A stretch of 23,213 nt of DNA from a virus. The stretch's first letter is position 1; each line of letters opens with the position of its first letter. Below are positions 6,001 to 22,709 of this stretch, one piece after another. The notes beneath the pieces were generated by a model. It worked only from the letters and a program-made list of their open reading frames with translations. It had not been told where the DNA came from and made no database searches. Location of the stretch: IMG/VR virus record IMGVR_UViG_3300009481_001819, positions 1-23,213 of that record, one strand, 5' to 3'. The translations under genes were made by a program, and so were the position numbers.

Positions 6001-9000
6001 TTGAGATAAGGTTGGTGGTGTTGCGTCATCTCCATAAAGTGTGTGGTAAGTATCATCTATAGATTCCAGTTCATTGTTCTGGAATTCTACGTATTGCCTA
6101 ATTTGCTCTAGCAAAACAATGGCGTAATCAGGTTTATCCCCAACTTCTTCCCTAACCAAACGCATGATGTTCTGAGCTGTGTACTTAGTCCCTTTAATAC
6201 CAGCAAGACTATCAAACACTCCAAAATAGATTTTAGAGTTTATTAATTCATTCAAATCATTTACTGCAGCTTCTGATAAATCGTAAATTATTTGACGCTG
6301 CGCATCATCCCTGTAATTAAATAATGTCGGAGCTTTGCTTTGAAGCTTACTAATTCCTATGAAATTCTTAACGTCTTTGTTGTCCCACAATTTATCGTAA
6401 GCTTCTTCGATAGTCCTTACGTTTTCGTCACCCCGAACAAGTGTTTTGCTTGTTTTCCCATCACCTTTAGGCTCACGGTAAGCTTTGTAGATCTTATTAC
6501 CATCGCTATCCAAATCTTGATATATGTCAGCAGTTATTTCTTTTCCAGTTTTATCGTAATAAGTAACAGTCTGGACTTTCTGAGCTTCGCCGGTAAGTCT
6601 GTTTTCAAGTTTTGTTTTGTGTGAATACTTTGGAAGCTCAAGACTAGATAACTCAACCTCTTTAAGGTCATCTCCAAACTTTGCTTTTACGACTTCTTCT
6701 TGCTTTTGTTTTCTAGTTACCGTTTTCTCGGGAGGGGCCTCGGTTTCAACCTCTGGTTCCGGCTGTATGCGGGCACCAGCTTTAGGATCTGTTTTGACAG
6801 GAGAGATTAGCTGATCTGAAATGTCAAATTTAGTTTCGGCATTAGGTGCTCTACGTTCAGTGCCCTTTTTAAGAAATCTGACGTTTACTAATTTTGCATT
6901 AAAGCCACCAGCGTGAGTTGCGAATGTAGTCTCCCACTGAGTATCAGAGTCAAGGAGATCTAACACCTGAGACATTACGTCTATGTTCTTGCCTTGATTA
7001 GCAGGGTCATAGAATATGTTAACCCTCTTGCCACTTTTAATCGCATCTGCAATTTGCTGAGCTAATTCCTGCGGTATAGAATCCGCAATTTTAATGTTCT
7101 TAAGCTGAAGCTTGGGTGCTTCAGCTCTTTCGTCCGATTCCTTTCCATCATAATCCCTGGCAGATGACTCAAAGTTGAGCTGCTTTATTACCTTTGCTGG
7201 ATTTATACTTATGGTTCCAGCAGTTTTGTTTTTCTTAGGAAGAATAACGGTATGAGTCGTTCCTGAGTCTCTTCCGGTGTACTCAACTTCTCCTTTTGTC
7301 TGACTTAAATTTATTGCGTTTTTGTTTACAAGACTGGAAATAACAAAATGCTGGTTAACTGCCTCTCCGAACTCCCGCGCGTCAGCAGCTAATTCGACTT
7401 CACCACCTGCGTTTGCTGGCGTGAAATTCGTCCCTGCAGTTTTTACCAATTCGGCATATCCACTTCTACGACTACCAAATTCTACAGCTGATCCACGGAA
7501 CACTTCACCAATGGGCTGCAGTTCATCCGAAACCTCTACATCCTCACCTTCAAATGCCTCTTCTCCTACTTCTTCTACTTCTATATCAGCTTTGGCCGTA
7601 TTATCGTATCTAGCCATTGCAAGATTTATTTCGTCATTACTAAGATTCGTATCCTTTAATGCAGCCTGGAATTTTTCACGGCCCATTCCGCTTTCATTAG
7701 CAGTTTGGATCATGTCGTCCGCTATTTCATTAAACGCCTCTTCGGCGTCTTGGTCCGAGATCAAAGGATCGATCTTACTTACATCCACAGCAAACTGATT
7801 GATTTCATCGACAGCACTTACAATCTGAGGTTCCGCTGCTTCCTGAGCAGCCTCCTTGCTAATTAGTTCTTGCTGCTTGTCACCCTTCTTTTTCTTAGCC
7901 TTCTTCTTGGAAGCATCTCGGTACTGTATTTTATTGCCAGTGTGCTGCTCAAAGATTATCTCGTTGATCTGGTTGTCAGTAAGTTGCTCCCCCCGGTTCT
8001 GCCTAAGCATAACCTCTACAGCAGTGCCAAACACAGCATCGGTGTTCAGGTCAGACCCTTCCCACATGGCCTCAACATCAAAATCAGTCCACTCATTTAA
8101 GTTTTCTAGATAGCCAGCATCAACAAGTTCACGGAACTGGTCGCCCATTTGCTTGGCTTGTTTCAATTGCGATTCATCTTGAACAAAGTCTTTCTTTGCG
8201 ATCTTAGACTGGCGACCAAGACTCTGGTTGTTTAGAAAACCCATGACACGCTTCTGGGCATTATCACGTTTAATAGGATCTCTTGAATCTATAGCATCCA
8301 GGTCTTGTGCTATCTGTGCCGCTACATCTTCAGAAACACCTCCAGACTCTAATTCCTTAATAGCGACATCTTTAACGCCCTGAATAGACTCAGGCGCTAT
8401 TAGCTCTCCCTGCTCAACCCTCTCTTCTCGCATCTCTTCTAAGAGCTCAGCTTCTTCTGTACCCTCTTCAAACTCAAGCTCTTCATCGACGGCAAGCTCA
8501 TCGGCTTGCCGCTGTATTACGCTTCTTAAATTGTCCTTTCTCTTTCGCTGCAAAAGATCTTCAATAGTATTATTTACTTCTTGATTTCTTTCTGCATCGA
8601 CATTCTCAACGGTTTCTACTAGAGCGTCGTGAAGCTGACTGGAAAATGCTTCCCTTTGTAAGTTTGTCTTCAGGCCAGCTTTTTCTAGGTTTGTAGGCAA
8701 TAAAAATCTTAGTCGGTCTCTGGTATTAGCCCACTCACTGTACTTGTCTATTAGCTTCTCTCTACTGTGCACCGACAGCTCTTGCTGAGAAGCTCCCTGC
8801 TCTACAGCCCACTTTTCAAAATTATCTTTTTCCATCTGTATAAGAATAGAAGGTGAAATAAACTTACCTCCGTCGTCCATCTGAGATAGAACATCTGCAT
8901 CTTGTTGCGAGTCTCTTTCAGACTCCTCCATAGTCTCCATAATTGAAAGGATCATGCGACCTCGTGGAACATCGGAGTTTATAGAACCATCAGGGTTGAA

Positions 9001-11172
9001 TACAGATTGATCAGAAAGAATAAACTCTCTAAACGCATTGCGTGAGGTCTTCGCAGCTCCTACAAGCTCAATAGCATCTTTTTTTAGTTTGTTATCCTGA
9101 GCTATGTAAGGCATCATAGCTTCGACTACTTTTTGTGCTTGACTGTCAGCTGCCTCAACATCTTTTTCTATCGCATCTATCTTTTCCTGAAGCACTTCTC
9201 CGGCAACAATTTTGTCGCCTATCTTTTCCCCAACGGAATTTCGCAGTATTTCAATGGCCTTCTTTTTTCCGGTTGATTTGCCGTATATACTCAGAAAATC
9301 ACCGAGACCTACATTTTCTCCGTCGTAGGGGATTTTTAAGCTGTTTAGCTTTTTGGTATTTTCTTTACTTGGATCACCGACCCATTCAGCAATCTGATCC
9401 ACCATCTGATCAGATACCATACGGTCTTCTTCGTTATCGCTCTGATAGCCAGATGCAATTTTCCCGGTTACTTTATCGGCTATTTCCTCACCACGAGTCT
9501 CCCTGACGTTAGCTCTATTAGCTATTTCTTTTAAAGTTCTATTCTTCTTCCCTCTTCCACTCATCGACTTGATAGATCTACCAGTAGCACCTAGCACAAG
9601 CATTGATGCCCCAGTAGCTTTCCATGTCTCCATTATCCTTCCTTTGACATCAATAGGCACATCAAGATCGTTGATCTCATTACCTATATGCTCACCGATC
9701 ATTGTTAATGATTCCTGAGCCACTTCCTGAGCTGTTTCCTTGGCAGCATTAATAGTGCTAGACTTTGTCCCCTGCCAAAGATTCTTGCCTCCCTGAATGA
9801 ACTTCTGAGACATTGATGTGTTTCTTTGTTTAACTACATCGAAAGCTTGTTTCAAACGCCCTTGTTGATTTGGCTTCAGATTCTTAAACCAAGAAGATTT
9901 CATGCTTTTAACCTGAAATCGTTCAATCGCTGCAACTGGAATGGCTGCTATAGAAGACACTGCATTAGCGCTGTCAGTGCTGGCACCATTCTCTACCATC
10001 TGGTCATAGATTGCATCTTTAGACTGTGCCCACCAGAACGTAGTTGACCCGACAGCTGCTGCCCGACCTGCCCCTTTTGCACCGACCTTAAGTGCTGTTT
10101 CGGCACCCTTCTTTGCAAGAGCACCAGTTCCCAGACCACTTATCATGCCGGGAGCTATTTCTAAGGCACCAGTAACAGCTCCTTCAAACCCGCCCAACCA
10201 CTCACTCCCAGTTGGAGCTGTGGTCTTTCTTTGTCTCTCTATTAAGTACTCAGCAAAATCTATCTCTGCCTGATCTAGTTTATCTTGCTCGGTATCTTCG
10301 TTTATTAGTCCAACCCATTGACCCAACTGCGTAGCAGCGTCACCAATCGACTCTCCTGTTTCCACAAAGCCCTTTTCGTAAAACGCATTCCAAGAACGAC
10401 CAAATAATCCAGCTTGCACTTGATTTTCATTGGATACATTTAGCATTGCCTCAAAGAAGTCTCCCTTCTCATCATCAGGCATACCATTCACCATCTGAAA
10501 AACGGTTTCTTTGGCATCGTTGCCGGGGTCATACATCTGAGCAATATTACTAGCCGCTTTAGCTAAGGTAAATGCCTTCAGCTGCTTCTTAAACCTTTCA
10601 TGGTCAAACGGTTGATCTGGATAGTCTGCCCTGGCTTTTCTCTCAGCAGCAACAGCCGCCTGTTCAAGCCAATAATCATCAACAGCGGTATTGTCATCAC
10701 TGCTTTTAGTAATGTGATATCCTGCATAGCGGTCAGGATCGATCTTACCTTCAGTCCAGCTACCTATAAATGTGTCATGTAGATAAGAACCTGCACCTCC
10801 ACGATCTATGTTTCGGCCTACGTCTATTGACCCATCTTCATTAAACTGCAAAGGGGCGACAGAAATCTTAGATTCCATTGCGAGCTTCTTAGCGGATTCT
10901 CGCTCAAAGTCACGACCACCTACGGCACGAATATCAGTGCCTGTGAACCGAGGCTTGTATATGCGAGCCTCGTGCTCTTCTTTAATGCGTTGCTGCTCAG
11001 CTGCAGCTGCCTGCTTTTCAGGAACGCCGGACCATTTGCCGCCAGACGGAGCCGGTGGGAGCACCGGCTTCCTCTCAGCAATAGATTTCTTTTCTTCTTC
11101 TTCTACAGACTGTTGCTTATAGAGATTGTCGTATAAATCCGACGCACTGAAATACTTAATTTCATCTGGCAT
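1..11172 (-). CDS. Giant phage protein, zincin-containing polyvalent/ejection type (3' truncated)
   Basis: The frame is open from ATG 11172 to the left edge: 3724 codons and no stop. The start is secure: AAAGGT lies 6 nt upstream, an in-frame TAG sits at 11193-11191, and no other start codon lies between. Visible from N to C: charged helical region; hydrophobic Gly/Ala-rich segment about residues 325-410, possibly membrane-active; acidic and Lys-rich linkers (SKKKAKKKK at about 1088); coiled coil about 2170-2275; a probable metallopeptidase domain about 2605-2800 with HELVH at 2742-2746, followed by FDTG, and a candidate third zinc ligand Glu2778 in SEDIAIALEYW; Lys/Glu helices 2860-2915; YYVNRSY at 3128-3134; TVLSAKTVSRN near 3440-3455; FGNFPVW near 3685. 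The late motifs resemble regions of phage large polyvalent proteins. It follows nozzle and coiled-coil genes, the slot of T7 gp15/gp16 internal proteins, so ejection with the DNA is inferred. Substrate is unknown. The C-terminus is not in the window. Confidence 0.9.
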   Translation of the reverse strand, partial: MPDEIKYFSASDLYDNLYKQQSVEEEEKKSIAERKPVLPPAPSGGKWSGVPEKQAAAAEQQRIKEEHEARIYKPRFTGTDIRAVGGRDFERESAKKLAMESKISVAPLQFNEDGSIDVGRNIDRGGAGSYLHDTFIGSWTEGKIDPDRYAGYHITKSSDDNTAVDDYWLEQAAVAAERKARADYPDQPFDHERFKKQLKAFTLAKAASNIAQMYDPGNDAKETVFQMVNGMPDDEKGDFFEAMLNVSNENQVQAGLFGRSWNAFYEKGFVETGESIGDAATQLGQWVGLINEDTEQDKLDQAEIDFAEYLIERQRKTTAPTGSEWLGGFEGAVTGALEIAPGMISGLGTGALAKKGAETALKVGAKGAGRAAAVGSTTFWWAQSKDAIYDQMVENGASTDSANAVSSIAAIPVAAIERFQVKSMKSSWFKNLKPNQQGRLKQAFDVVKQRNTSMSQKFIQGGKNLWQGTKSSTINAAKETAQEVAQESLTMIGEHIGNEINDLDVPIDVKGRIMETWKATGASMLVLGATGRSIKSMSGRGKKNRTLKEIANRANVRETRGEEIADKVTGKIASGYQSDNEEDRMVSDQMVDQIAEWVGDPSKENTKKLNSLKIPYDGENVGLGDFLSIYGKSTGKKKAIEILRNSVGEKIGDKIVAGEVLQEKIDAIEKDVEAADSQAQKVVEAMMPYIAQDNKLKKDAIELVGAAKTSRNAFREFILSDQSVFNPDGSINSDVPRGRMILSIMETMEESERDSQQDADVLSQMDDGGKFISPSILIQMEKDNFEKWAVEQGASQQELSVHSREKLIDKYSEWANTRDRLRFLLPTNLEKAGLKTNLQREAFSSQLHDALVETVENVDAERNQEVNNTIEDLLQRKRKDNLRSVIQRQADELAVDEELEFEEGTEEAELLEEMREERVEQGELIAPESIQGVKDVAIKELESGGVSEDVAAQIAQDLDAIDSRDPIKRDNAQKRVMGFLNNQSLGRQSKIAKKDFVQDESQLKQAKQMGDQFRELVDAGYLENLNEWTDFDVEAMWEGSDLNTDAVFGTAVEVMLRQNRGEQLTDNQINEIIFEQHTGNKIQYRDASKKKAKKKKGDKQQELISKEAAQEAAEPQIVSAVDEINQFAVDVSKIDPLISDQDAEEAFNEIADDMIQTANESGMGREKFQAALKDTNLSNDEINLAMARYDNTAKADIEVEEVGEEAFEGEDVEVSDELQPIGEVFRGSAVEFGSRRSGYAELVKTAGTNFTPANAGGEVELAADAREFGEAVNQHFVISSLVNKNAINLSQTKGEVEYTGRDSGTTHTVILPKKNKTAGTISINPAKVIKQLNFESSARDYDGKESDERAEAPKLQLKNIKIADSIPQELAQQIADAIKSGKRVNIFYDPANQGKNIDVMSQVLDLLDSDTQWETTFATHAGGFNAKLVNVRFLKKGTERRAPNAETKFDISDQLISPVKTDPKAGARIQPEPEVETEAPPEKTVTRKQKQEEVVKAKFGDDLKEVELSSLELPKYSHKTKLENRLTGEAQKVQTVTYYDKTGKEITADIYQDLDSDGNKIYKAYREPKGDGKTSKTLVRGDENVRTIEEAYDKLWDNKDVKNFIGISKLQSKAPTLFNYRDDAQRQIIYDLSEAAVNDLNELINSKIYFGVFDSLAGIKGTKYTAQNIMRLVREEVGDKPDYAIVLLEQIRQYVEFQNNELESIDDTYHTLYGDDATPPTLSQIKTLKDKGGTVKLAGTDKRTTDTEQILNQAGPEQAAWMEAEGQAPGRAWGNQTDTYFTQVELKEKLVQLRKDWMDPEYIIRESQGFYKDVVSFDKDDDGVIRPYVQGVSVEEELSDVPEDPNAAFQEAATEEVESQQEKQSGPKVITTWDKEQLENSLKAAAAYGNTYLDILGREEYGALTSDQKFDSTLMDTANAVGNIGWQEGISDEGSFVLQSIEGVELDTTASKGNQKKEVVISLVWNKLYDRYSIATTYADGTHFNAFVAISMGRDEWIEKQVKETQGYDSIEELVNAAPRDLKMYQDQHRRYVEEARKVLSDSQFPSVVQAQYPDLFNKDFIKQEEVLEKAWNEQEIEEFNEALEIVVDDFIDDAILESNGDSKILRGLIKEALSDHEDTLMNLANSSYKIENKVLRKFNTEDGVAWILDNWHGVLKRVVEARKEELKRPESFLADEEDREVQDLKVTASNLYAAVGRAQEEGNTEQAEKLLASYEEAQAKAEEAERKYNEKYDPEAGIEETPKDRAERLDKQQAELEQPEQAEQQKEDLSYREGLWMPKPVSRKERVPAKLEFRSEGQRIAFEDGDPYHNTVRQEGSNPPGLHFIAEYENGFILLTEKDYNRRYGWSHSYNKADRHRFEGGKEYLVDAGNTLAGVERNSETGEWVEPETNLGEFLGFAPVSESRYGKAAILHRTGPFFYNDKLNENSKFSATAERLKHVQKIYELLPIDITEGAMGQDVVTGTLYNDIILSADSVADLVSEGKSWQEAFEEVVGESDKVAADIKKFTGLEAGELFKQIMEGPDPSKPLKTEGGFELGREMREQRAPDPIADVDLNDMPDTFQLEQEVERPPQPEFDNTGKGSEKRMFEGMDADPKQTDLDFEARITVPDKLAKQVMAEVSKLTAADIQEAFPGSVVTETEFGFEIKLGDNRVPIVFRTAVTVSEKGARNIWKNSYSKLPGWEAYTEQDFVDSMTSEGSQGLMIIPVAGTKDVAPMERLGILGLMQVKAGQNRRETLSTIRHELVHLAFDTGLWTEQEKAALVRRFSDPNASRTQQSEDIAIALEYWKEPGVLQKFADWINEILHKLTGGTLTLSNSDVQRLLTSESVWQRDPSTKVKPTDWGEPQIGSDISLSADPERSPYLEKKKELKKVKRAIARAIKKGDDVEEERLLEQRKQLILDLEEIIRENARNIPGMRPEQMDIGESVLEGLAKEFDTEYDELVKGWLKRKSKFNFAKVRQVSRDTFAKTISDVPKTLSAFILEAYDVPAKSGTAKRKIMRKLKEAKMGFMNYHNQQRARSMSKMDKARKKLTTKDLNPILKEYFFKYLTGTKGLQGGLSIGDALKKYIPDSSKRESIVEALREYEEALNEAREHIDALSEEGINIGLFQRPGEDLNLLEITIDENLGYYVNRSYALFETPAKYHDFLQNTTEGKALVKRAAAKVHEQNQGEDRVKAEIAAIRELFKKDGLFYEEGKKKRKEIRADIAAVIKGLDKLPDGRRISAERAAEIKEKMNSDAFKEDGPKYKSIVTQEMSRYKTSMMMTPNGQKEVENQLGDMDLATEQEALDEVNRIIEGHYNSAMGSVSGAEQDLGVLQERKKINKEFLELFGEVRDAPASYAITTGKLAQMISINSLQKSIVKSGIFGGQLRTPEQGSAPNITTELLGPQWGALEGYWVHKDAMKAINEISGRGGKIGELMRGDGPVGYILTGMVAMSNAARMNKTVLSAKTVSRNMTEALIQGFINGSFSLGRLSQSYATASYIAGEKNPALKWGMNPTVATLDKLLQFNKDYKVDEELSEFLVKSGVVGNDDWRVVEEQIQMTLDQFSDVNSLIPDGVAKEQDDRKILEKFSDFLKSNRGDPSVPNATRRERARRKFNELIGYITNNKLVKDQGSMYRIPDDVLKVNTFLTEVSILTRAYAGTKTKMQIWEEAGERTKRTTPTATRVPKLVKGLSAVPLFGNFPVWTTSFIQSTVGAYQIAYEDIKSGNQVLRRSGQMRLARIS
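7103..7126 (-). other. Intragenic hairpin, 9-bp perfect stem, 6-nt loop
   Basis: AGCTGAAGC and GCTTCAGCT flank a six-base loop inside the giant gene. It is the longest of a set of perfect stem-loops found inside coding regions of this window. The others, with 8-bp stems, are at 1043-1064, 2194-2215, 5116-5138, 5614-5635, 8490-8511, 9392-9415, 11050-11069, 13226-13246, 20212-20232, 22030-22049 and 22623-22644. None is followed by a T-run, so they are not ordinary terminators. Confidence 0.6.
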
Positions 11173-11240: not shown

Positions 11241-13178
11241 TTATTCGAAAGGGTTCGGCCCCATCTTAAAGATCTTCTCCTCTAGCTCTTGAGCAGCTTT
11301 GAGCTCTTCCGGTGTAAGCGTATCCACTGGCTTCATCGGAGCGCCCCGTATTACGTCATCAACCATCAATTCCGTGGCCCCTAGTGGTTCCGGCGGTACA
11401 GAAATGGGTTCGCCGTCCGCACCTTTAATTATTTTGCCATCAACCGTAAAGAGTCTTCCGTCTGGTGACCTCCACATCGCCTGACCGGATTTGCTAATCT
11501 CAGGAGTTGAATTTTTTGGAACTCCAATGTGCCGTGCTCCTTCAAGTACTTGGCCCTGCATAGCAATAAGTTCATCCTCCCCGGCGGTACTTCCCAAAGA
11601 TTCAAGCTCTTTAAGCGAGTTGTTGTAAGCTTTTATAACTTTTGCCATTCTTTCCTTAGACATACCTTGAATCATTTCAGGATCTAACATATTACCCATT
11701 TGTTTGGCAATGTCTTTAGCGACCGAAAGATTCTTGTGGTTTAAGTCTAGCCGACCCTTGGACAACGGAATTGGCCCACTAGGAGGTTGTACAGGTACGT
11801 CAAGACGATCAATTGCACCGTCTGGACGCCTTGTGTAATCGCCATGTTCTGCATCTTCTTGATTTTCAAAAGGCCTGCCTTCAGAACCGACACCAGGAAT
11901 GTTAGGGCCTTGTGGATGAGTACCTAGTAACATATTCGGATCTCTAGCAGCCTCTTGATCCGCTGTCATCATAATATTTTCTTGTTCAACTTCCGATCTT
12001 TGATCAAAAGGAACAACGCCGTCCTGCTCTACTCCGTCTAGAACATTTGCTGCTGAAGGCGACCCCATTGCAGAGCCCGGCGCAACTTCAAGGCCGTAAC
12101 GATTACGCTCATGGGCTAATATCGCATCGTAATCCACTTCCCCATCTGGCCCGAGAGCCCATTTGGGAATTGAACTGTTGTAGCCTCCTGAGACGATATC
12201 CCCTTTGTTAGTGTATTTCTCGTACAGCTCCCTAGCGTCATCAGAGGCTTGCTTTTCATTTTCCCGTGTCTCTTTTTCAGTTTGTATGCGCAGTTGTTCA
12301 GCGTCATGTTTAGCGTCGGCTACATCTTTAGCACTCTGAATTTGAATTCTCTGTGGCGGGCCACCACTTGGATCAGGAATTATCTTAAATATATTATCTC
12401 CGTCTTCTTCTGTTTTGGTGTGAGCTTCTTGCCACTCCGCTACGTTCTTATACTTTACACCGTCTTCGCCCTCAGCGTCCCAGCGGTAAACATCTTGACC
12501 GTTGATTCGCTCAATAATGTAACCATTCTCTTTTCCTACGTAACCATCCTGATAACGAGCACCTCTTTTGTTTTCACTATCTAATGGAGAATTGAGTATT
12601 CCTTCTTGCTTATCTTTAAGTGGAGCAACGGCTTCGTCGTACTGCTCTTGGTTTATCTCCCCGTTCTGCATAGCAGTGTCTAGCTCTGCAATTTGACCAC
12701 TAATCTGATCATGCGCGTCTTTGCCTTGGGGAGTAAGGGTTCCGTAAAGATTGTTGCGTGCCTGAGCTGCTTGATCTCTTCTGATATTGTCAGCAGTTTG
12801 TTTATCTTCAAGCTCAAATCGGTTTTTTAGTTCGTCAAGATTGTTCTTGTGACCCATATCCATTAGGTCAACTCGTCTATCATGATCAATTGCATTTTGA
12901 TCAACTTGCCAGTCGTGCATCTTTTGGTCACGATCAACGTCAAATTGATTTGCCATCATCTGACGCTGCATACCAGCCTGATGGTCAAACTGCATCTTTT
13001 GGAAACCGGCATTAATATCGTCAATGTGCATAGCGGCACGCTGCTGTCGCTCAGCACGCTTTTCCTGCTGAGCTTCTAGCTCTCTACGACGACGATTAAT
13101 GTACTCGTTTTGCCCTGTCTTGTAAGCCAGACGGCCTACAGAGGTCATGCTAGGGCCATGTTCTACTACAATTCCCAT
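11241..13178 (-). CDS. Coiled-coil virion protein, probable internal/ejection protein (645 aa)
   Basis: The start is the first possible one: a TAA codon lies immediately upstream in frame. The previous gene's stop is 6 bp away, and a weak GGA about 9 nt upstream is the only ribosome site. Residues 1-26 form a distinct N-terminal motif (GIVVEHGPS then GRLAYKTGQNEY). Residues 27-145 are a highly charged Gln/Arg/Asp/Met-rich helix with Phe59, Phe64, Phe79 and Trp90, very likely coiled coil. Residues 200-280 look like a small beta-containing unit (ENGYIIERINGQDVYRW). A second charged helix covers about 280-335. A proline/glycine-rich linker follows, then a helical C-terminal third. No signal peptide and no catalytic motif. 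Its place between the 1751-aa protein and the giant suggests a partner in the same virion sub-assembly, comparable in position to T7 gp14/gp15. Function is inferred from context only. Confidence 0.8.
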   Translation of the reverse strand: MGIVVEHGPSMTSVGRLAYKTGQNEYINRRRRELEAQQEKRAERQQRAAMHIDDINAGFQKMQFDHQAGMQRQMMANQFDVDRDQKMHDWQVDQNAIDHDRRVDLMDMGHKNNLDELKNRFELEDKQTADNIRRDQAAQARNNLYGTLTPQGKDAHDQISGQIAELDTAMQNGEINQEQYDEAVAPLKDKQEGILNSPLDSENKRGARYQDGYVGKENGYIIERINGQDVYRWDAEGEDGVKYKNVAEWQEAHTKTEEDGDNIFKIIPDPSGGPPQRIQIQSAKDVADAKHDAEQLRIQTEKETRENEKQASDDARELYEKYTNKGDIVSGGYNSSIPKWALGPDGEVDYDAILAHERNRYGLEVAPGSAMGSPSAANVLDGVEQDGVVPFDQRSEVEQENIMMTADQEAARDPNMLLGTHPQGPNIPGVGSEGRPFENQEDAEHGDYTRRPDGAIDRLDVPVQPPSGPIPLSKGRLDLNHKNLSVAKDIAKQMGNMLDPEMIQGMSKERMAKVIKAYNNSLKELESLGSTAGEDELIAMQGQVLEGARHIGVPKNSTPEISKSGQAMWRSPDGRLFTVDGKIIKGADGEPISVPPEPLGATELMVDDVIRGAPMKPVDTLTPEELKAAQELEEKIFKMGPNPFE

Positions 13179-13184
13179 TTAGTC

Positions 13185-16100
13185 TTATCCGTATGTAAGC
13201 ATCGGTTTACGTTTCATGCCAGAGCCTTTGGCCTGTCGGGCCAAAGAGCTTAGCCCTCCCCCCTGTTTTTTGTAACGTGAAGCAGCATTACGCATTGCAC
13301 TGGCGTTTGATGACGAAGTTTGCATCGTGTTACCCAAAGCTCTGTTTTGTCTGGCAGTGAACTGCTTTTGCTGCATCCCTTGGTTGGGTTGGCGAACATT
13401 TATAGTTGTTGACCCCGAAGTCTGCCGAGTTTGCTGCGGCCTTTGTAAAAGCGACGTGTCCATACTGCCTGGATTGCGGCGATTGCCTTGCCCCATAATG
13501 AATTGTTTATCAGCTGCGGTAGGTTGCAATGATTGCTGATACTTGCTCCGCAAGTCATTAAGTCGTTGGTTACCAACAGCACCATGTTTATCACGAAGGA
13601 ATTTATCTTGACCTTGCTGATCACGCTGGAACTGCGAGGTCTGTGGTTGTGTCTCCCGATTACTCTGGCCTATCCTAAATCGCGCTTCAGCGTTAGCTTT
13701 TTCGTAGCCTTCCCCCCGTGCTTTATAGCGATCCAACCTTTCTCGCAATTCTGGGGGATGTTGTGCGTAAGCGTCGGTCTGAGGCTCATTCCTATTTGGC
13801 TGACCCTGAGCTTGAGCACTCAAACCCTGCAATGAACTCGGACTGCTTTGCTGCTGTTGCCGCTGACGAATCATATCGCCATAACCCTCCTGCCCGAACA
13901 TGGGGTTTTCAGGGGTTGCTTCAGGGCCTTGCTGCATACGTGATGCTTGAGGTTGACCCATTTGAGATGACGACTGCATTCGAAGTTCTCGGTCAGATAG
14001 CTGCATTGGATTGTTCTGGCTAGGGAATCCACGCAGTCTTTGGCTTCCGGTTCCCTCTTTGATCTGGTCGAATAATGCTACCTGATCTCGGGTGTTACCG
14101 CCCTCACCAAAGTTGGACTGCCATTTGTCCATGTCAGCCTTAAATTGACCAGCGTTCTGCATTCGCTGTTCAGGCGTCATCATGTCAAAGGTGCGTTTCA
14201 TGTTGTCAAGGAATTGCTGACCCTGATTATCTTGCCTTTTGAAGCCTCCACCGCCTTGCTGACCGCCACCTTGAGGCTGTGAACCCGCCGATGGTGGCAT
14301 CATGCCCATTCGCTTGTTAGCATTTTCTACAATCTCATCCTGCTTCTGGAGTTGCTCATTCCAAATGTCGCCTGCCATTCCCATGCCCGCTTGAACATCT
14401 GCGTTCCAAGGTGCATTAATAGGCATCATCTTATTCATCATTGATGCGTACTGGGCTGGGTCTGCGTCAGTACGTGGAGCATCAAGCTGATTACCCTGAG
14501 CAGGTTGCCCACCAGCAGGCTGCCCACCAGCATCCTGACCTCCCGCCGCTTGATTTCCACCTTGAGCAGCAAACGCTTGAACACCTGGGGGGAGTCCGTT
14601 GACACCACCACCTACGTTGCCACCTTGAGGTTGTTTAAAACTTACATCTGCGTTCGGGGGAGGGATTACTCCTTGAGATTGCGGCTGACCTTGAGCTTGT
14701 GCAGCTAACCCCTGAAGACCGCCACCCATGCCATCACCCATCTCAGCCGCAAGAGCCGCCTGTTCACCGCCGGGGTCAAGCTGTTGCTGCATAAACTGGG
14801 CGTATTGGGAATCGTCCATCCTTCCTAATCCGTCCGGTGTAAACACTCCGGTATCACCGCCACCGCCCGGACCTGCAGGTATGCCACCACCGCCACCACC
14901 GCCACCAATTGGGCCGCCTGTAGTAGGGTCTATGTTGGGTTCTAATGGGGGAGGATCATAACCAGGGGGATTGTTTTTACCGCCTTTACCGCCTTTACCG
15001 CCTTTACCACCTTTACCGCCTTTACCGCCACCCTTTGGTGGTTGAGTTGGATTCCCACCACCTGCTGTTCCAGTCCCTGCTCCTGCACCACCGCCAGCAC
15101 TACCACCGCCAGCACTACCACCTCCAGCACTACCACCGCCTTCTAGACCACCACCCATTCCTCCGGGGCCTTGGTTCGGGTTGTAGAATGGCCCACCGCC
15201 GCCAGGGTAACCACCCGGTGGACCCATTGAGCCTGGGCCTGTTCCGTCAATAACATCAACACCAGAATCTTTGTCTTGAAGTGAAACCTCGCTACCATTT
15301 ACAGTAACATCAACATTGACTTCGCCACCTTGAGCCTGTTGCACTGTAGCATTCTCTAAGGCTGCACCCAACGTACTGTTAGTAGATTCATAGGCTGATT
15401 GAGCAGCCGTATAGCCTTCTTGAGCAGCAGCAAGTGCTTCTGCGTTTCCGCTTTCAAGAGCTTCTTGCAGCTCTGTAGCTTTCTGCTCAAGAATTTCACG
15501 CTGCTCTTGTCGAACTGTGTCAGCAGCGTACATTTGGTCTCTAAATCTAATATCATCAGTGGCCCTAATATCTTCTAAAAATTTCTTCTGGAAGTCTTTG
15601 TCGGCATTTCTCCATTTATTTCTTTCGCCTTCCATGTCAAACATTTGTTGGCGACGAGCTTTTGCATCAGCGCGATTTTGATCCTGAACTTCTTTAGCCC
15701 TAGCTTGCTGTGCCATCATTTGCTGACGCATAAATGCCTGCTGCTGAGCCATTTGCTGTTGAGCAAATGTCGGCCCTGTTTGTCCGGCAGGCTGTGCTCC
15801 ACCAATACCTACTCCACCAACACCTTCTCCAGAAGCACCGGCAGCCATGATTAAATCAGCCATATCCTTTAGGCTTGGGGGAATGTCTTTCCTGTCTGCC
15901 ATAAACCCTAACTGGCCTCGTCTTGTTTCATCGCCACGAACGTCGTTGCGTTCGTTTGTTGCAAGACGACCTAACCCAATCTGAGCTTGTGTTCCAAAAT
16001 TAGTCGATTCCTGACCTAATCTTGAAGCTAATCCTTGGCCTGCAATTTGACCTTCCAGTCCTGTCAACTGGCGATCTGCGGCTGCACCTGCTGCTGCAGC

Positions 16101-18440
16101 CTGACCTTCCATGCCCGCTTGTGAACCAAACTGTTGGCCGATCAAACCACCTTGTATACCAGCACCTTGACCAAGAGCACCTGCCTGTTGACCTTGAATA
16201 GATGATGTCAATCCAGCATCTGCACCACCAAGTTGCTGCTCACGACCCGCTGCGGCTGCCAATCCTGCAAGACCAAACTGAGCCCCCTGACCCTCAAGCG
16301 CTGTCTGACCTCGGTCACCAGCGCCTGCAACGGCTTGACCCAAAGCTGTTCTGGCAGCGGCGTTTTGAGCCGCCATTTGTTGAGCTGCGCCAGCTCCTGC
16401 CATTCCAGCCTGCATCTGAGCCTGAGCTCCCTGGGTAGCCATTCCCTGTAGTCCAGCGGCACGCTGTCCAGCGATACTTTGCTGACCAGCTGCACGTTGA
16501 CCAGCAATGCTCTGCTGACCAGCTGCCTCCTGACCTACCAAACCGGCTCGTGCTCCAGCAGCCTGAGCCGCCAATTGCTGCTGAGCAGCTAATTCAGCCC
16601 CAGTTAAATTGGCAGCCGCACCTGCCTCCTGACCAAGAAATCCCATTTGAGCTTGGGTTCCCTGTTGAAGTGCACCTAACTGACCAGCAAGAGACTGTCT
16701 CCCTACAGCCTGCTCTGCAGCAGAGATGCCTTGTTGCCCTGCAGCCTGTTGCCTTAACCCTTCAAGACCAGATTGCATTTGAGCTTGTTCACCACGAACA
16801 TCAGCTCGCTCAGCTCCTGCGAGTGCTTGTTGATCAAGCTGCGTCTCAGTGCCTATGCGATTCATGCGGGCCTGCTCGCCAGCACCAGCTTCAGCTCCAG
16901 CTAGAGAAGCTTCTGACTGTAGACCTACCTGCTGAGCTGCATCTTGAGCACTCATTCCTTGGCCGGTAAGACGCTCAAATGCTCCAGCTTTCTGCTGGCG
17001 AACTTGCGAATCAACCTGACCAAGAGCTTCTTGACGATTGCGTTCTATATCGGATCTTGCACGGTCTATTTGACCACGTATTGTAGTGCTGTCTAAACCA
17101 CGAGACACGAGGCTTTGTTGCATTTGACCAACAGTTTTTTCAATCTGCTCATCAAATTGACGGTTAATACGATCCGTGGAAGCCTGACCCATCTGATCGT
17201 ACATGCCTAATCCAGTTTCAGCACGTTGCCCGTATCTCTGTGCTCGTTCGTCCTGAACTCCTCCGGCAGCTCCTGCTGCCGTTTCTCTGGCAGCACCAAA
17301 ATCAGAAGCTCTTTCACCAGCAGCTTGATCAAAACGACTACCGGCAGTGTCACGTATACCTTGAAAGCCTTCACGTACTTTTTCACCAGCAGTTCTGGCT
17401 CTTTCACCAGCATCCCTACCTAATCCTTCGTAACCTTCACCTAACTTGCCCAAACGGCCTTCTGCCCGAGAAGTTAAATCCTGAAGAGTTTGTTGGCCTA
17501 GCTGCCCAGCTCTTGCTTCCGCAGAGCTTGCGATGTCAGAGGCTGCGCCACGAGCCGCAGAAAAATCGCCCTTTACGCCAGCCTTACCTTTTTGAAATCT
17601 TTCACCAGCAGCAGAAATGTCACCAGCAGCACCTTCCCTAACTTCACCTCGGGCTCTCTGAAAAGCAGAACTAGCATCTCCAGAAGCCTTATCAAACGCT
17701 GCACCCGACTTACGTTCAGCCTCTCCAAAAGCTTCGCCTGCTTTACGCTCGGCTTCTCCAAATAACTGGCCTGCCTTGCCCTGCTGTTTAGAATAATTAC
17801 CCAGAACAGATTCGGCATCTTTCTTTCTTGATGCTTCGTCTTTACTGGCTAAACTTTCATAACCAGCTTTTACCTTCCCTCTCCCAGACTCAATTGTCTT
17901 TCTTTGCTCAGCAGCTTCTTTTTTATACCGCCCAATAAGCTTTTCTACATCTTTACTACCACGAGCCAATAAGCCTTTTCTAGCTTCCGATCCAAGCTCT
18001 CCAACTTTTCCGGCGACTTTTTCGCCAAGTCCTTTAGCCTTTTCTCCTGCGGCATCTGCAAGCTTTCCCAAACGACTTTGTCGATCATCAAACCTACCAG
18101 TTGTATCTTGAACACGTTTAGCTCCTTTCTGCAGTACATCTGTTCTAGTGCCATCCGCAATGTCTTTCATGGCAGAAGAAACATCGCCAGAAAGACCCGC
18201 CATTGCTGTTTCTAAATTACCATACCTGCTATCAAGAGCATCTAAACGAGTTTTTTGCTCATTAACTAATTGATCGTATCCACGGATTATTTGCGCATAC
18301 CGATCCTCATTGGCTTGATTACCTTTTAGACGCGCAGTTTCAAACTCGGAAATAACTCGTTCAATTAAGCTTTGTCTGTAATTAACTTGCTCACCGACAG
18401 TTTTCTTGCCCCGACTGGGGTTTTTTTGATCTGCGCCCAT
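13185..18440 (-). CDS. Repetitive hendecad-helix and Gly/Gln-rich virion protein (1751 aa)
   Basis: Start ATG shares its A with the preceding stop (TAATG), with AGGT just upstream. Residues 1-70 are charged helix. Residues 73 to about 821 follow an 11-residue repeat with hydrophobic positions 1, 4 and 8: charged and LEA-like up to about 430, then Ala/Gln/Gly-rich (AAGQQSIAGQR occurs twice in tandem). Residues 890-1020 are a Gln-rich coiled coil. Residues 1065-1200 are Gly-rich with SAGGG and KGG micro-repeats. From 1200 to the end the chain is Gln/Gly/Met/Pro-rich and probably disordered. It contains a motif present three times (GLQGLAAQAQGQP 1241, SLQGLSAQAQGQP 1536, GLSSLARQAKGSG 1729) and a QYA-x-x-M motif twice (1212, 1330). 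There are no G-X-Y triplets, so it is not collagen-like. I do not recognise a family. Position suggests an internal virion protein or elongated scaffold; a fibre role is the alternative. Confidence 0.85.
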   Translation of the reverse strand: MGADQKNPSRGKKTVGEQVNYRQSLIERVISEFETARLKGNQANEDRYAQIIRGYDQLVNEQKTRLDALDSRYGNLETAMAGLSGDVSSAMKDIADGTRTDVLQKGAKRVQDTTGRFDDRQSRLGKLADAAGEKAKGLGEKVAGKVGELGSEARKGLLARGSKDVEKLIGRYKKEAAEQRKTIESGRGKVKAGYESLASKDEASRKKDAESVLGNYSKQQGKAGQLFGEAERKAGEAFGEAERKSGAAFDKASGDASSAFQRARGEVREGAAGDISAAGERFQKGKAGVKGDFSAARGAASDIASSAEARAGQLGQQTLQDLTSRAEGRLGKLGEGYEGLGRDAGERARTAGEKVREGFQGIRDTAGSRFDQAAGERASDFGAARETAAGAAGGVQDERAQRYGQRAETGLGMYDQMGQASTDRINRQFDEQIEKTVGQMQQSLVSRGLDSTTIRGQIDRARSDIERNRQEALGQVDSQVRQQKAGAFERLTGQGMSAQDAAQQVGLQSEASLAGAEAGAGEQARMNRIGTETQLDQQALAGAERADVRGEQAQMQSGLEGLRQQAAGQQGISAAEQAVGRQSLAGQLGALQQGTQAQMGFLGQEAGAAANLTGAELAAQQQLAAQAAGARAGLVGQEAAGQQSIAGQRAAGQQSIAGQRAAGLQGMATQGAQAQMQAGMAGAGAAQQMAAQNAAARTALGQAVAGAGDRGQTALEGQGAQFGLAGLAAAAGREQQLGGADAGLTSSIQGQQAGALGQGAGIQGGLIGQQFGSQAGMEGQAAAAGAAADRQLTGLEGQIAGQGLASRLGQESTNFGTQAQIGLGRLATNERNDVRGDETRRGQLGFMADRKDIPPSLKDMADLIMAAGASGEGVGGVGIGGAQPAGQTGPTFAQQQMAQQQAFMRQQMMAQQARAKEVQDQNRADAKARRQQMFDMEGERNKWRNADKDFQKKFLEDIRATDDIRFRDQMYAADTVRQEQREILEQKATELQEALESGNAEALAAAQEGYTAAQSAYESTNSTLGAALENATVQQAQGGEVNVDVTVNGSEVSLQDKDSGVDVIDGTGPGSMGPPGGYPGGGGPFYNPNQGPGGMGGGLEGGGSAGGGSAGGGSAGGGAGAGTGTAGGGNPTQPPKGGGKGGKGGKGGKGGKGGKNNPPGYDPPPLEPNIDPTTGGPIGGGGGGGGIPAGPGGGGDTGVFTPDGLGRMDDSQYAQFMQQQLDPGGEQAALAAEMGDGMGGGLQGLAAQAQGQPQSQGVIPPPNADVSFKQPQGGNVGGGVNGLPPGVQAFAAQGGNQAAGGQDAGGQPAGGQPAQGNQLDAPRTDADPAQYASMMNKMMPINAPWNADVQAGMGMAGDIWNEQLQKQDEIVENANKRMGMMPPSAGSQPQGGGQQGGGGFKRQDNQGQQFLDNMKRTFDMMTPEQRMQNAGQFKADMDKWQSNFGEGGNTRDQVALFDQIKEGTGSQRLRGFPSQNNPMQLSDRELRMQSSSQMGQPQASRMQQGPEATPENPMFGQEGYGDMIRQRQQQQSSPSSLQGLSAQAQGQPNRNEPQTDAYAQHPPELRERLDRYKARGEGYEKANAEARFRIGQSNRETQPQTSQFQRDQQGQDKFLRDKHGAVGNQRLNDLRSKYQQSLQPTAADKQFIMGQGNRRNPGSMDTSLLQRPQQTRQTSGSTTINVRQPNQGMQQKQFTARQNRALGNTMQTSSSNASAMRNAASRYKKQGGGLSSLARQAKGSGMKRKPMLTYG
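14976..15035 (-). repeat. 9-bp micro-repeat coding KGG
   Basis: Residues 1136-1155 read as Lys-Gly-Gly units, with Lys at 1136, 1140, 1143, 1146, 1149, 1152 and 1155. The DNA units are nearly identical 9-mers, with one variant (plus-strand accacc in place of accgcc). The basic, flexible tract could contact DNA or the acidic partner proteins; that role is inference. Confidence 0.8.
15087..15140 (-). repeat. 15-bp micro-repeat coding SAGGG
   Basis: Residues 1101-1118 of the 1751-aa protein are GGG followed by three SAGGG units. The DNA units are near-identical 15-mers, so slippage or recombination could change the copy number. They would act as a flexible linker between the coiled-coil half and the C-terminal half. 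Confidence 0.8.
16428..16526 (-). repeat. 33-bp tandem repeat, three units (AAGQQSIAGQR)
   Basis: Residues 639-649 and 650-660 are identical at protein level. Their DNA (16494-16526 and 16461-16493) differs at five positions, all third-codon synonymous. A third, diverged unit (AAGLQGMATQG) occupies 661-671. The pattern indicates an old duplication whose amino-acid sequence has been kept. Confidence 0.8.
17697..17762 (-). repeat. 33-bp tandem repeat (FGEAERK unit)
   Basis: Two adjacent 11-residue units, FGEAERKAGEA and FGEAERKSGAA (residues 227-248), are the best preserved pair in the first half of the hendecad array. The next two units (from F249 and F260) keep the Phe and the spacing but have diverged. 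Confidence 0.7.
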
Positions 18441-19007: not shown

Positions 19008-19286
19008 TTAACTCATCTGCGTAAGGGTTTCTTCGTACCAGTTGCCGTTGTAAGCAATGCATAGCTTTGCTGTTGATCCCGCACCAAACAGCAATACAAT
19101 CTCTCCATCAGCAGGACTAGTGCTTAAGTCCGTTGAATCAGTTTCATCGCTAGTAACTACTGGAATAGCTACAGCTCCATTAAGTGTAATTTGTGCAGGA
19201 TCAGTTAACGCTAGGCGAGCATTAGCACGCCTAGCTCTCGGAGGAAACTTTGGACCTCTGTTGAGTCCACCAACTAGTCCACTCAT
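19008..19286 (-). CDS. Small virion protein of unknown function (92 aa)
   Basis: I place the start at ATG 19286, which shares one base with the stop of the nozzle gene (TAATG), as at two other junctions here, with GGGAGA about 8 nt upstream. A GTG at 19292 would add two residues and is less likely. The N-terminus is basic and Pro/Arg-rich (about residues 10-25, PKFPPRARRANARLAL). The rest is predicted beta (QITLNGAVAIPVVTSD, then GEIVLLFGAGS), ending in a compact strand motif (KLCIAYNGNWYEETL). No enzyme motif. It lies between the nozzle gene and the large repetitive proteins, so a minor tail or virion component is likely. Confidence 0.75.
   Translation of the reverse strand: MSGLVGGLNRGPKFPPRARRANARLALTDPAQITLNGAVAIPVVTSDETDSTDLSTSPADGEIVLLFGAGSTAKLCIAYNGNWYEETLTQMS
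19210..19235 (-). other. Intragenic inverted repeat, 8-bp stem, 10-nt loop
   Basis: GCTAGGCG and CGCCTAGC are perfect complements inside the 92-aa gene, within the codons of its basic Arg/Ala-rich segment. There is no T-run on either side. Confidence 0.5.
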
Positions 19287-20863
19287 TACCACTGTCTCCC
19301 TCTTGGGCCATCAAAGCTATTTAGCTCAATCCCCAAAAATTCATATGCCCAAGCTTCGTTGTTGTCGTCATTTCTTATTTTAATGTATATGTCATGTCCC
19401 ACAGCGCGCCTTCTTTCAGACTTATTCCTGCCAGCAGACCAACTACCAGTAAATACTGTCTGAGCTGATGCCGATGCCTCAGCAAGCTGAGCTGTTTCCG
19501 CTGCATAAACGGTAAAGTCTACGTCACTGCTTCCAGTCGCTATTGCCGCCTTCATGTCAGTAAGCATAATCTTAGGGCGATTAGCTAGTTGAATTGGCCC
19601 AAGATAGACAAAGCTATCTATAGCAACGCCATCATCGGCTGTAGCCGGTGTGGTGTAATCAAATTTTCTTACATACCCATCCTGACCGCCCAGCAAAACA
19701 GTTCGGTCGGCAGCAGCATCGCCATCAAACGTGTGCACAGACACAGGATTGTGTGCCGCCGTTGCAAACTTGTCAGGCCACCAAGACTGATTTCTAACAT
19801 CATAGTAAAAGTTTGTTGTCGCCCCACCAGCCAGCGGAGTTAAGAAAACGTAAAAACCACGTTCGATGTCACTCCAAGCCATACGTACTTGTGTCGTATC
19901 TGCGTTAAAAGCATTTAAGCGTTCAGGTATTTGTTTTTCGCTAATGTTTTGCGGAGGAGAACCAGGCTGCATTTGATACACACCACCCCGTGAACCAAAG
20001 AAATAAACAATCCCTTCAGGAGACTTGCAATAAGGCCTTCCAAACGGAGCACCTATTGTGTCCGACACTAAGTCAAGCCTACCACCTTCAGCTGGGTCAC
20101 CAGTCATTTGGTAGATTGTATGATCACCAAAGAACAGCAAAATGTCATCGCTATACGGGCACATAGCATTAATAATGTCAGGGCTTTTACCTGCGTCCGC
20201 ATTGTTACCAGCTACGGCCTGTATGGCCGTAGGAGTAGCTGGAGCATAGTTCCAATCTCTTGCATCACCTACTTTAGACATGTACCAGTTGTGCGGATCG
20301 GTGCTAATCCCACTACAAACAATACGCCCCCGCCAAGTTTCAATAAGGCGAGGTTCATTGCTGCTATCAATTGGAAGAGAGCCAGCCGAAGCTGACCATG
20401 TAGCTACAGTGTTAGTTGATGCAGTCCACTGCTTCGTAGAAGCGCCATCGGCAAAGTACACAACACCAAAAAGTTGTGCCGAGAATATTGCTGGAACAGT
20501 AGAAGACAAAGCTCCAGATCCATTAGTGGCTGTAGTAAACGTAGACGACGTTACCCTTGCTACAGTACCATTAGTAATTGCGTAGGTATACACCGTCCTC
20601 GCACCAACCTCATTTTGGTTGGCTGGGGTAGCTCTAGCTACAACTTGACCAATATCTTGTACTTTGCCATCAGCTGTTCGTGCGTCTACATACTTTGACA
20701 ACCCAGCACGCTGGCCACCACGAGAGCGACCAGTAGAAGGTTCCCAAGCACGAACATTCTGACACTCGGCGGTGCTGTTACGTGGTTGTGTTTCAAAACC
20801 TGTAGACTCCACTAAACCAAGATTAGGCCAAGGCATATCAAACCTTGTCCTTAATCTTGCCAT
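19286..20863 (-). CDS. Tail nozzle / DNA-stabilisation protein, beta-propeller type (525 aa)
   Basis: The N-terminus (FETQPRNSTAECQNVRAWEPS, then GRSRGGQRAGLSKYV) has the 'C-x-N-x-R, R-G-G-x-R-x-G' pattern of short-tailed phage nozzle and DNA-stabilisation proteins of the P22 gp10 / T7 gp12 type. Propeller-blade motifs follow: IETWRGRIVCSG with DPHNWYMSKVGDARDWNY (about 190-225), DDILLFFGDHTIYQMTGDP (about 245-265), EGIVYFFGSRGGVYQM (about 290-305) and RGFYVFLTPL (about 345). The C-terminal 130 residues are also beta-rich. Such proteins form the hexameric nozzle that closes the tail and holds packaged DNA. The start is coupled to the upstream stop by TAATG with no clear Shine-Dalgarno. Length is ordinary for the group. 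Family assignment comes from recognising patterns, not from a database search. Confidence 0.85.
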   Translation of the reverse strand: MARLRTRFDMPWPNLGLVESTGFETQPRNSTAECQNVRAWEPSTGRSRGGQRAGLSKYVDARTADGKVQDIGQVVARATPANQNEVGARTVYTYAITNGTVARVTSSTFTTATNGSGALSSTVPAIFSAQLFGVVYFADGASTKQWTASTNTVATWSASAGSLPIDSSNEPRLIETWRGRIVCSGISTDPHNWYMSKVGDARDWNYAPATPTAIQAVAGNNADAGKSPDIINAMCPYSDDILLFFGDHTIYQMTGDPAEGGRLDLVSDTIGAPFGRPYCKSPEGIVYFFGSRGGVYQMQPGSPPQNISEKQIPERLNAFNADTTQVRMAWSDIERGFYVFLTPLAGGATTNFYYDVRNQSWWPDKFATAAHNPVSVHTFDGDAAADRTVLLGGQDGYVRKFDYTTPATADDGVAIDSFVYLGPIQLANRPKIMLTDMKAAIATGSSDVDFTVYAAETAQLAEASASAQTVFTGSWSAGRNKSERRRAVGHDIYIKIRNDDNNEAWAYEFLGIELNSFDGPRGRQW

Positions 20864-21605: not shown

Positions 21606-22709
21606 CTATGGGTTTGTATCGTAAAAGGCACTTCCATTGTACTTTACAACGTCACCATTTACATAACGATTGTCTTGTTCTGTCATCATCACAGTATCAC
21701 TAGCGTCTCGGTTATAGCCAGCGACATCTGGAGTGTTGATTTGTTTGTCGTAAGCGATTGATGCCTGCAATCTTTGCATGAAGTTAGCTGCATGAATACC
21801 AGCATTGTTTTCCTGACGAGCTTCAGCAACTGCCAAACAACTAGCAAGTATTGTTTCCGCATGAGCCTCACCTCCCAATGGGTACGGATAACTTGCCGTA
21901 AGTTTTGCTGGGAGAGCATGGTACCGATAAGAAACCGTATACGCTGCATCGGGAGTAGGCCACAACATTAATTGGAATCGCTGGCCATTAGATCCATCAC
22001 TACTTATTGGCCGAATAGCCATAAAGCGTGGATCAGATTGCTCTGATCCGCTGTCTCGTTGACGAAGCAATCTTATGCGAGCTTCACCAGTCGTTTCAAT
22101 TGGGCTCCAGCGATCATCGCTAGTAGCATAAGTCGCTACACCAATCATCCCACCAAAATTAGCCGACAAAGTATAGTCCTTTGTTCCAGCCACGGTAGAA
22201 AGAGTAGTAGTAGGCTCCATAAAAGACCATTTATATCCTTTTGGAGCTAACCCTCCTGGAGAAGGATGGTAAAATTGACGTAGGCCAGAATTAATAATGT
22301 CATCTATTTGAGTTAATTCATCTGCAGACCAATTTCCCGAAGTACGTTCTCCGAGCCAATACCAGCCGACTTCCTTTCTCAGGTCAGTCAATCCAAGAGA
22401 CAACGATGACTCTGTGCTGGTATCAGCCGGAGAACCAATTGTCTTTATCGTAAACTGGACCGGAACAGCTGATGTGTGGGTAAACAACAACCCTACTACA
22501 GCTGCGGTCATTTCTGCCGCAGTTAAATTAACTGAGTATTGACCGTTCCCTTCTTCTGCAATGGAACCTGCAATGGAAGCCTGTGTTCCACCGTCTTTTG
22601 TAATGAATTTACCTATGCCTGAAGCAGCCCCTGTTAGGGCTGCTCCGGTAGTCTTATTGACTAAGCCAAAAGTAAATCCAGTTACAGCTTCATTGCGTAC
22701 AAAGCTCAT
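21606..22709 (-). CDS. Head-to-tail connector (P22 gp4 / T7 gp11 type) with extra N-terminal domain (367 aa)
   Basis: ATG overlaps the upstream stop as ATGA, with AAGG seven bases before it. Residues 1 to about 92 form a separate beta-rich domain (GFTFGLVNKTTGAALTG, then GNGQYSVNLTAAEM, then VPVQFTIKTIG). Residues 100-330 carry the connector pattern: LGLTDLRKEVGWYWLG, then ADELTQIDDIINSGLRQFYHP, then the Trp-containing strand YKWSFMEPTTTLS and a beta region ending in TVSYRYHALPAKL, then a helix with HAETILASCLAVAEAR. Proteins of this type form the ring under the portal that receives the nozzle. The short C-terminal tail (VNGDVVKYNGSAFYDTNP) may be a strand that contacts neighbours. The N-terminal domain is an addition compared with T7 gp11. 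Family call by pattern recognition. Confidence 0.8.
   Translation of the reverse strand: MSFVRNEAVTGFTFGLVNKTTGAALTGAASGIGKFITKDGGTQASIAGSIAEEGNGQYSVNLTAAEMTAAVVGLLFTHTSAVPVQFTIKTIGSPADTSTESSLSLGLTDLRKEVGWYWLGERTSGNWSADELTQIDDIINSGLRQFYHPSPGGLAPKGYKWSFMEPTTTLSTVAGTKDYTLSANFGGMIGVATYATSDDRWSPIETTGEARIRLLRQRDSGSEQSDPRFMAIRPISSDGSNGQRFQLMLWPTPDAAYTVSYRYHALPAKLTASYPYPLGGEAHAETILASCLAVAEARQENNAGIHAANFMQRLQASIAYDKQINTPDVAGYNRDASDTVMMTEQDNRYVNGDVVKYNGSAFYDTNP

Follow-up and report, generated by a model that had tools for sequence, protein, structure and literature searches.

The ejection proteins of podoviruses diverge so fast that gene order is the usual basis for assigning their function. In phage T7 the ejected gp14 forms a pair of antiparallel helices connected through a short loop and is present in six copies in a channel located in the nozzle and the outer membrane, and prior to ejection the same protein bridges the portal and gp15 (PMC11784390). 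The genes are arranged in the order gp14-gp15-gp16, and gp14-like proteins of characterised podoviruses comprise 181-240 aa with size variation of less than 30% (PMC8954989). Periodicity of 11 residues is known from other phage proteins: siphophage tape-measure proteins have F/W every 11 residues and change their length by multiples of 11 (PMC3271669), and the DNA-translocating tube of phiX174 protein H contains hendecads (PMC7354561). These two examples show that the original prediction was wrong in holding that no phage protein with an 11-residue ladder had been described. Coiled-coil arms that are matched and of discrete length are known in SMC proteins, at ~47 nm in Bs Smc (PMC5344682).

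The protein considered here is encoded in a virus record of 23,213 bases, the whole of which is called the window. Its genes form one string on the minus strand, in the order (aa) 78 (fragment), 65, adaptor 367, 107, 133, nozzle 525, 94, 187, ladder protein 1751, 645 and a giant protein of at least 3724. The genes of importance for the comparison are the following.

21606..22709, minus strand: adaptor, Pfam SU10_adaptor (E 7.5e-16)
19286..20863, minus strand: tail nozzle protein, 525 aa, recognised by Foldseek matches from a low-confidence model
13185..18440, minus strand: ladder protein with the putative hairpin, 1751 aa, an open reading frame with homologues read
11241..13178, minus strand: 645-aa protein (P0003), directly downstream of the ladder gene, at the gp15 position by gene order
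1..11172, minus strand: giant protein of at least 3724 aa with a HELVH motif, at the gp16 position, continuing past the contig end

The nozzle gave a poor AlphaFold2 (AF2) model (mean pLDDT 45), whose Foldseek matches are nonetheless consistent, the top ones being podovirus tail-complex proteins (Pan3, SU10, VP1, Pam1, P22, Sf6). The adaptor was found in 12 of 14 distant-relative records, and a terminase, a connector/portal-like protein and a capsid protein are present in a near-complete relative. The order nozzle, hairpin, 645-aa protein, giant protein corresponds to gp12, gp14, gp15, gp16 of T7 by position, not by homology. The likeness to gp14 extends to paired antiparallel helices linked by a short loop, which prediction and arm statistics indicate here, and residues 25-143 of T7 gp14, with ~60 residues per arm, equal in size the short members of the present group. 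Unlike gp14, the protein has arms of up to 403 residues (480 in the longest up arm of the group) bearing an aromatic hendecad ladder. Membership of the gp14 family is not claimed, because comparison of the ladder protein with T7 gp14 by profile (hhalign) gave a probability of 0.1% or less and no similarity. The maximum Kyte-Doolittle window amounts to 1.11 for the ladder protein, in which no clear transmembrane segment was seen, and 1.31 for T7 gp14.

Relatives were gathered by way of the nozzle (41 loci in IMG/VR; 80 with a nozzle profile), and for every nozzle locus long enough to include it, the gene in the ladder position was read. Neither the ladder protein and its relatives nor two nozzles, the adaptor and part of the giant protein had a match in 50,697 phage genomes, and no relative turned up in one scan of genomes from bacteria and archaea. 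PHROGs and NCBIfam provided no name for any window protein, Pfam named the adaptor only, and profile searches of solved structures returned short or chance-like matches. Close homologues keep the frame of the ladder at differing absolute positions. In seven relatives (L024/L025/L029 and L051/L053/L055/L056) the N-terminal region is different and the hairpin starts at residue 500-850. Three anchors recur: a start motif (N..RY..IL), the turn RG(L/M)xxTT(I/V)R and an end motif (FMERR.D..P). On this basis the 1751-aa protein can be divided into the following parts.

18276..18371, minus strand: start anchor SLIERVI..FE.AR..GN.AN..RY, residues 24-55, putative hairpin base, conserved in the alignment
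17103..18275, minus strand: up arm with the aromatic ladder (residues 73-414), residues 56-446, helix in the AF2 model, no proline
17076..17102, minus strand: turn RGLDSTTIR, residues 447-455, conserved in 40+ contigs, AF2 loop at 447-450
15906..17075, minus strand: down arm of Ala/Gly/Gln-rich hendecads, residues 456-845, no proline
15816..15905, minus strand: end anchor FMADRKDIPPSL..., residues 846-875, conserved
13185..15815, minus strand: C-terminal region, residues 876-1751, Gly/Gln/Pro-rich by composition, probably disordered

The ladder itself proved to be as regular as originally described. Each of the 17 Phe/Tyr residues between 73 and 414 (73, 117, 172, 194, 216, 227, 238, 249, 260, 282, 293, 337, 359, 370, 381, 403 and 414) equals 7 mod 11, and the chance of one common class is ~11^-16. 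Autocorrelation, proposed as the check, gave F/Y peaks at 11, 22, 33, 44 and 55 in residues 60-430 (z 7.5-10 versus local shuffles) and no other peak up to lag 60. Hydrophobic residues of the up arm occupy row positions 3, 7 and 10 (and 6), never 1, 2, 5, 8 or 9. In the long members the aromatic column precedes the turn by distances that are exact multiples of 11, for all aromatics in some and for the large majority in others, and up-arm hydrophobics are absent at offsets 2, 5, 6, 9 and 10. As for the claimed continuation of the frame to about residue 821, F601 and F722 are in frame, and F/Y/L/I/V/M autocorrelation for residues 590-830 peaks at 11, 22, 33, 44 and 55 (z 3-4.5), where hydrophobics still fall on position 7 of an Ala/Gly/Gln-rich sequence, but F771 and F815 are out of frame and the signal in 430-600 is weak. 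After residue 830 autocorrelation detected no 11-residue aromatic or hydrophobic signal. The phase, said to run unbroken, is kept in homologues but is structurally interrupted by the conserved turn at 447. An artefact of a 33-bp DNA repeat was rejected because few repeat copies are still similar, DNA similarity at that spacing surviving in short runs only (16453-16535, 17710-17774); the ladder is an old repeat. The view of the region as one of hendecads and long helices, with a link to virion or ejection proteins, is supported.

The turn motif at residue 447 splits the ladder region into an up arm of 403 and a down arm of 399 residues, and the same near equality is found in relatives of very different length. 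Distances from start to turn and from turn to end are 403/399 (window), 392/389, 381/377, 370/366, 238/235, 227/224, 172/169 and 161/158 in longer members, and 87/84, 69/66, 61/55, 58/55, 51/48 and 40/37 in shorter ones; the down arms of the window and L040 were measured from the positions of F846 and F781. Across arm pairs in 43 contigs (40 to 403 residues, L042 being left out of this statistic) r = 0.99998 and the slope is 0.999, with a difference of always 3-6 residues, although 43 does not count independent events, because the sequences are related, and distinct lengths are the better unit. The up-arm lengths of 161 to 480 comprise nine distinct values, all of which equal 7 mod 11 (~5e-9 by chance if independent), and no other modulus from 3 to 29 fits these nine. 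Short members differ by 7s and 11s, steps which both keep the helix face, and a length of 60 is the single misfit.

Insertions and deletions in one arm are mirrored in the other. Between the window and L021 the up arm shows +11 at 318 and -33 at 188-221, and the down arm +11 at 310 and -33 at 197-230; L012 versus L040 shows -33 at 235-268 (up) and -33 at 244-277 (down); the window versus L002 shows +77 at 133 and +77 at 144; and L021 versus L016 adds three more size-matched mirror events. The mean mirror offset is 11 residues, where the position of a gap within repeats can be off by about a repeat; in 200,000 random placements no equally close fit arose. Such mirror-matched indels require pairing of the two arms in register over their length, and among proteins they are an unusually clear example of compensatory indels, akin to covariation of base pairs in RNA. 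In the most diverged pairs (window-L012, L012-L021) some gaps are not multiples of 11. Clearly unmatched arms (355/377) occur in L042:1314-6248, where 26 residues are missing from the up arm only, between LGQQ repeats, which reflects a recent deletion or else a collapse in the assembly. Frequent homologue indels out of step with 11 would have spoken against the ladder; most ladder indels are multiples of 11, with L042 as the one clear exception.

AlphaFold2 was given residues 1-875 with 23 aligned sequences, and it predicted a helix at 250-446, a loop at 447-450 and a helix at 451-663. Confidence is mostly 80-90 (pLDDT) at 410-490, low in the up arm except toward the turn and <50 far from the turn, with pTM 0.28, i.e. 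the predicted turn is supported by the model and the global shape is not. Prolines account for 2 of 9,209 hairpin residues versus ~10% outside, a figure unchanged without two records whose hairpin bounds were off. Counting against the hairpin reading, glycine makes up 15-18% of both arms, which is high for a stable coiled coil. Since a conserved turn separates two length-matched arms, the single straight helix of 110 nm proposed earlier is not supported, and the fold-back offered as its alternative is favoured by the data; at 0.15 nm per residue of standard alpha-helix the rod would measure ~60 nm in the window, ~70 nm in L002 and 6 nm in the shortest member. Lining of a membrane or wrapping of DNA by a lone amphipathic helix, also considered at first, is unlikely because the arms evolve as a pair, and the 11-mer families of LEA proteins, perilipins and apolipoproteins gave no Pfam match at E 0.1.

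Gene order and the match to the antiparallel-helix shape of gp14 suggest an ejected core protein working like gp14, and it is on the whole probable that the region is an antiparallel two-helix hairpin of such a podovirus protein, acting as a ruler-like strut or conduit element. Sequence statistics show the chain running up ~400 hendecad residues, with aromatics at exact multiples of 11, to the conserved turn and coming back over an equal number; in relatives the arms lengthen or shorten mostly by whole hendecads (by 7s and 11s in the shortest members), the change being mirrored in the other arm where tested. By gene order and shape the protein would be a podovirus ejection (internal core) protein standing in place of T7 gp14. 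With a thickness of ~2 nm, the hairpin could travel through portal and nozzle in its folded state or refold with ease, and a bundle of several copies, like that of the gp14 hairpins in ejected T7, would make up a strut or conduit. The length of this structure (~6 to ~70 nm) would depend on that of the arms and fit the barrier to be crossed. Its use would probably be to bring phage DNA through the bacterial envelope via a rod of adjustable length. More tentative, and less likely than not, is the notion of a genome-delivery ruler, in which the span of the ejected hairpin would be tuned in evolution by mirror-compensated gain or loss of hendecads so that the number of 11-mers encodes the length of a trans-envelope conduit, between ~6 and ~70 nm.

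Other arrangements have to be weighed against the ejected hairpin. Mirror-compensated indels and matched arms are equally expected of an antiparallel dimer of extended helices, ~120 nm long and crossing at the 447 motif, in which the up arm pairs with the down arm of the other chain. RGLxxTT, however, is predicted as a loop and its Gly and Ser/Thr-Thr have the look of a helix cap, the turn motif is kept even with arms of only 40 residues, and 120 nm is too long to fit straight in a head for a ~48-kb genome, which leaves such a dimer improbable. A collar inside the virion, with hairpins wrapping the portal or core as architecture and not as conduit builders, draws on several described structures: in N4 the gp51 density surrounding the portal is an alpha-helical hairpin (PMC12633501), in DEV a helical ring of gp72 encircles the portal (PMC10925440), and T7 gp14 serves as the pre-ejection bridge between portal and gp15 (PMC11784390). 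Yet straight arms that range tenfold in length are not something that a collar should require, and the collar is compatible with being the pre-ejection state of the ejected hairpin; as a separate explanation it is considered unlikely.

The siphophage-type tape-measure protein shares with the present protein an aromatic residue every 11 positions (F/Y here) and a length that changes in blocks of multiples of 11 (PMC3271669), but two matched antiparallel arms encoded in a short-tailed phage module set the latter apart: the tail module consists of an adaptor and a podovirus nozzle, two near-complete relatives have no recognised tail-tube gene, and neither a hairpin turn nor equal arms are described for tape-measure proteins, so that this identity is hardly credible. 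An external fibre or whisker built of the hairpin would accord with the length variation common in appendages; the gene nevertheless lies between those of the nozzle and the giant LPD-type protein, no receptor-binding domain is recognisable by Pfam, PHROGs or NCBIfam, and the C-terminal region is of low complexity, and a fibre is thought quite unlikely. SMC/Rad50 proteins resemble the ladder protein in two near-equal antiparallel strands around a hinge and in discrete arm lengths, and differ in that hendecads with an aromatic column are found here; no ABC ATPase head or hinge domain was matched in the ladder protein by Pfam, PHROGs or NCBIfam. The phiX174 H tube likewise has hendecad helices in a phage DNA-translocating protein, but there single coiled-coil helices, in part hendecad and in part heptad, assemble as a decamer, and there is no hairpin. 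No description of a phage hairpin with matched arms from 40 to >400 residues was found in the open-licence literature, and the length-matched, hendecad-quantised hairpin appears to be undescribed, whereas the aromatic 11-mer ladder itself is already known. For the ejected hairpin, the length series in these uncultured marine short-tailed phages offers natural material for studying how the length of a trans-envelope channel is determined, and the constraint of two equal arms, readable from sequence, provides a test for such proteins in other uncultured phages.

Several minor observations concern other parts of these genomes. Low complexity of the C-terminal region takes the form of (GGK)n at window positions 14976-15029 and of a long (NP)n in L025:5251-10188. 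The HELVH of the giant protein (window 1-11172) is a zinc-metallopeptidase-like motif in a protein without a significant Pfam match. Giants at the gp16 position in relatives carry LPD38, a large-polyvalent-protein domain (L063:15561-21086 and L076:5805-11084), or, in distant relatives, GGDEF (diguanylate cyclase; L080:9976-14364, E 4e-19, and L082:13665-18416, E 4e-20), the latter possibly representing a phage-delivered c-di-GMP synthase. The N-terminal ~100 residues of the adaptor (21606-22709) recur in a second protein, G001:C1:1824-2108, upstream of the terminase, with 54% identity (E 4e-26). In a 47.5-kb relative (L044-L046) ORFs near both contig ends terminate in an identical STTPIAAISMNTYRQMRN peptide, which suggests a terminal repeat or paralogous genes.
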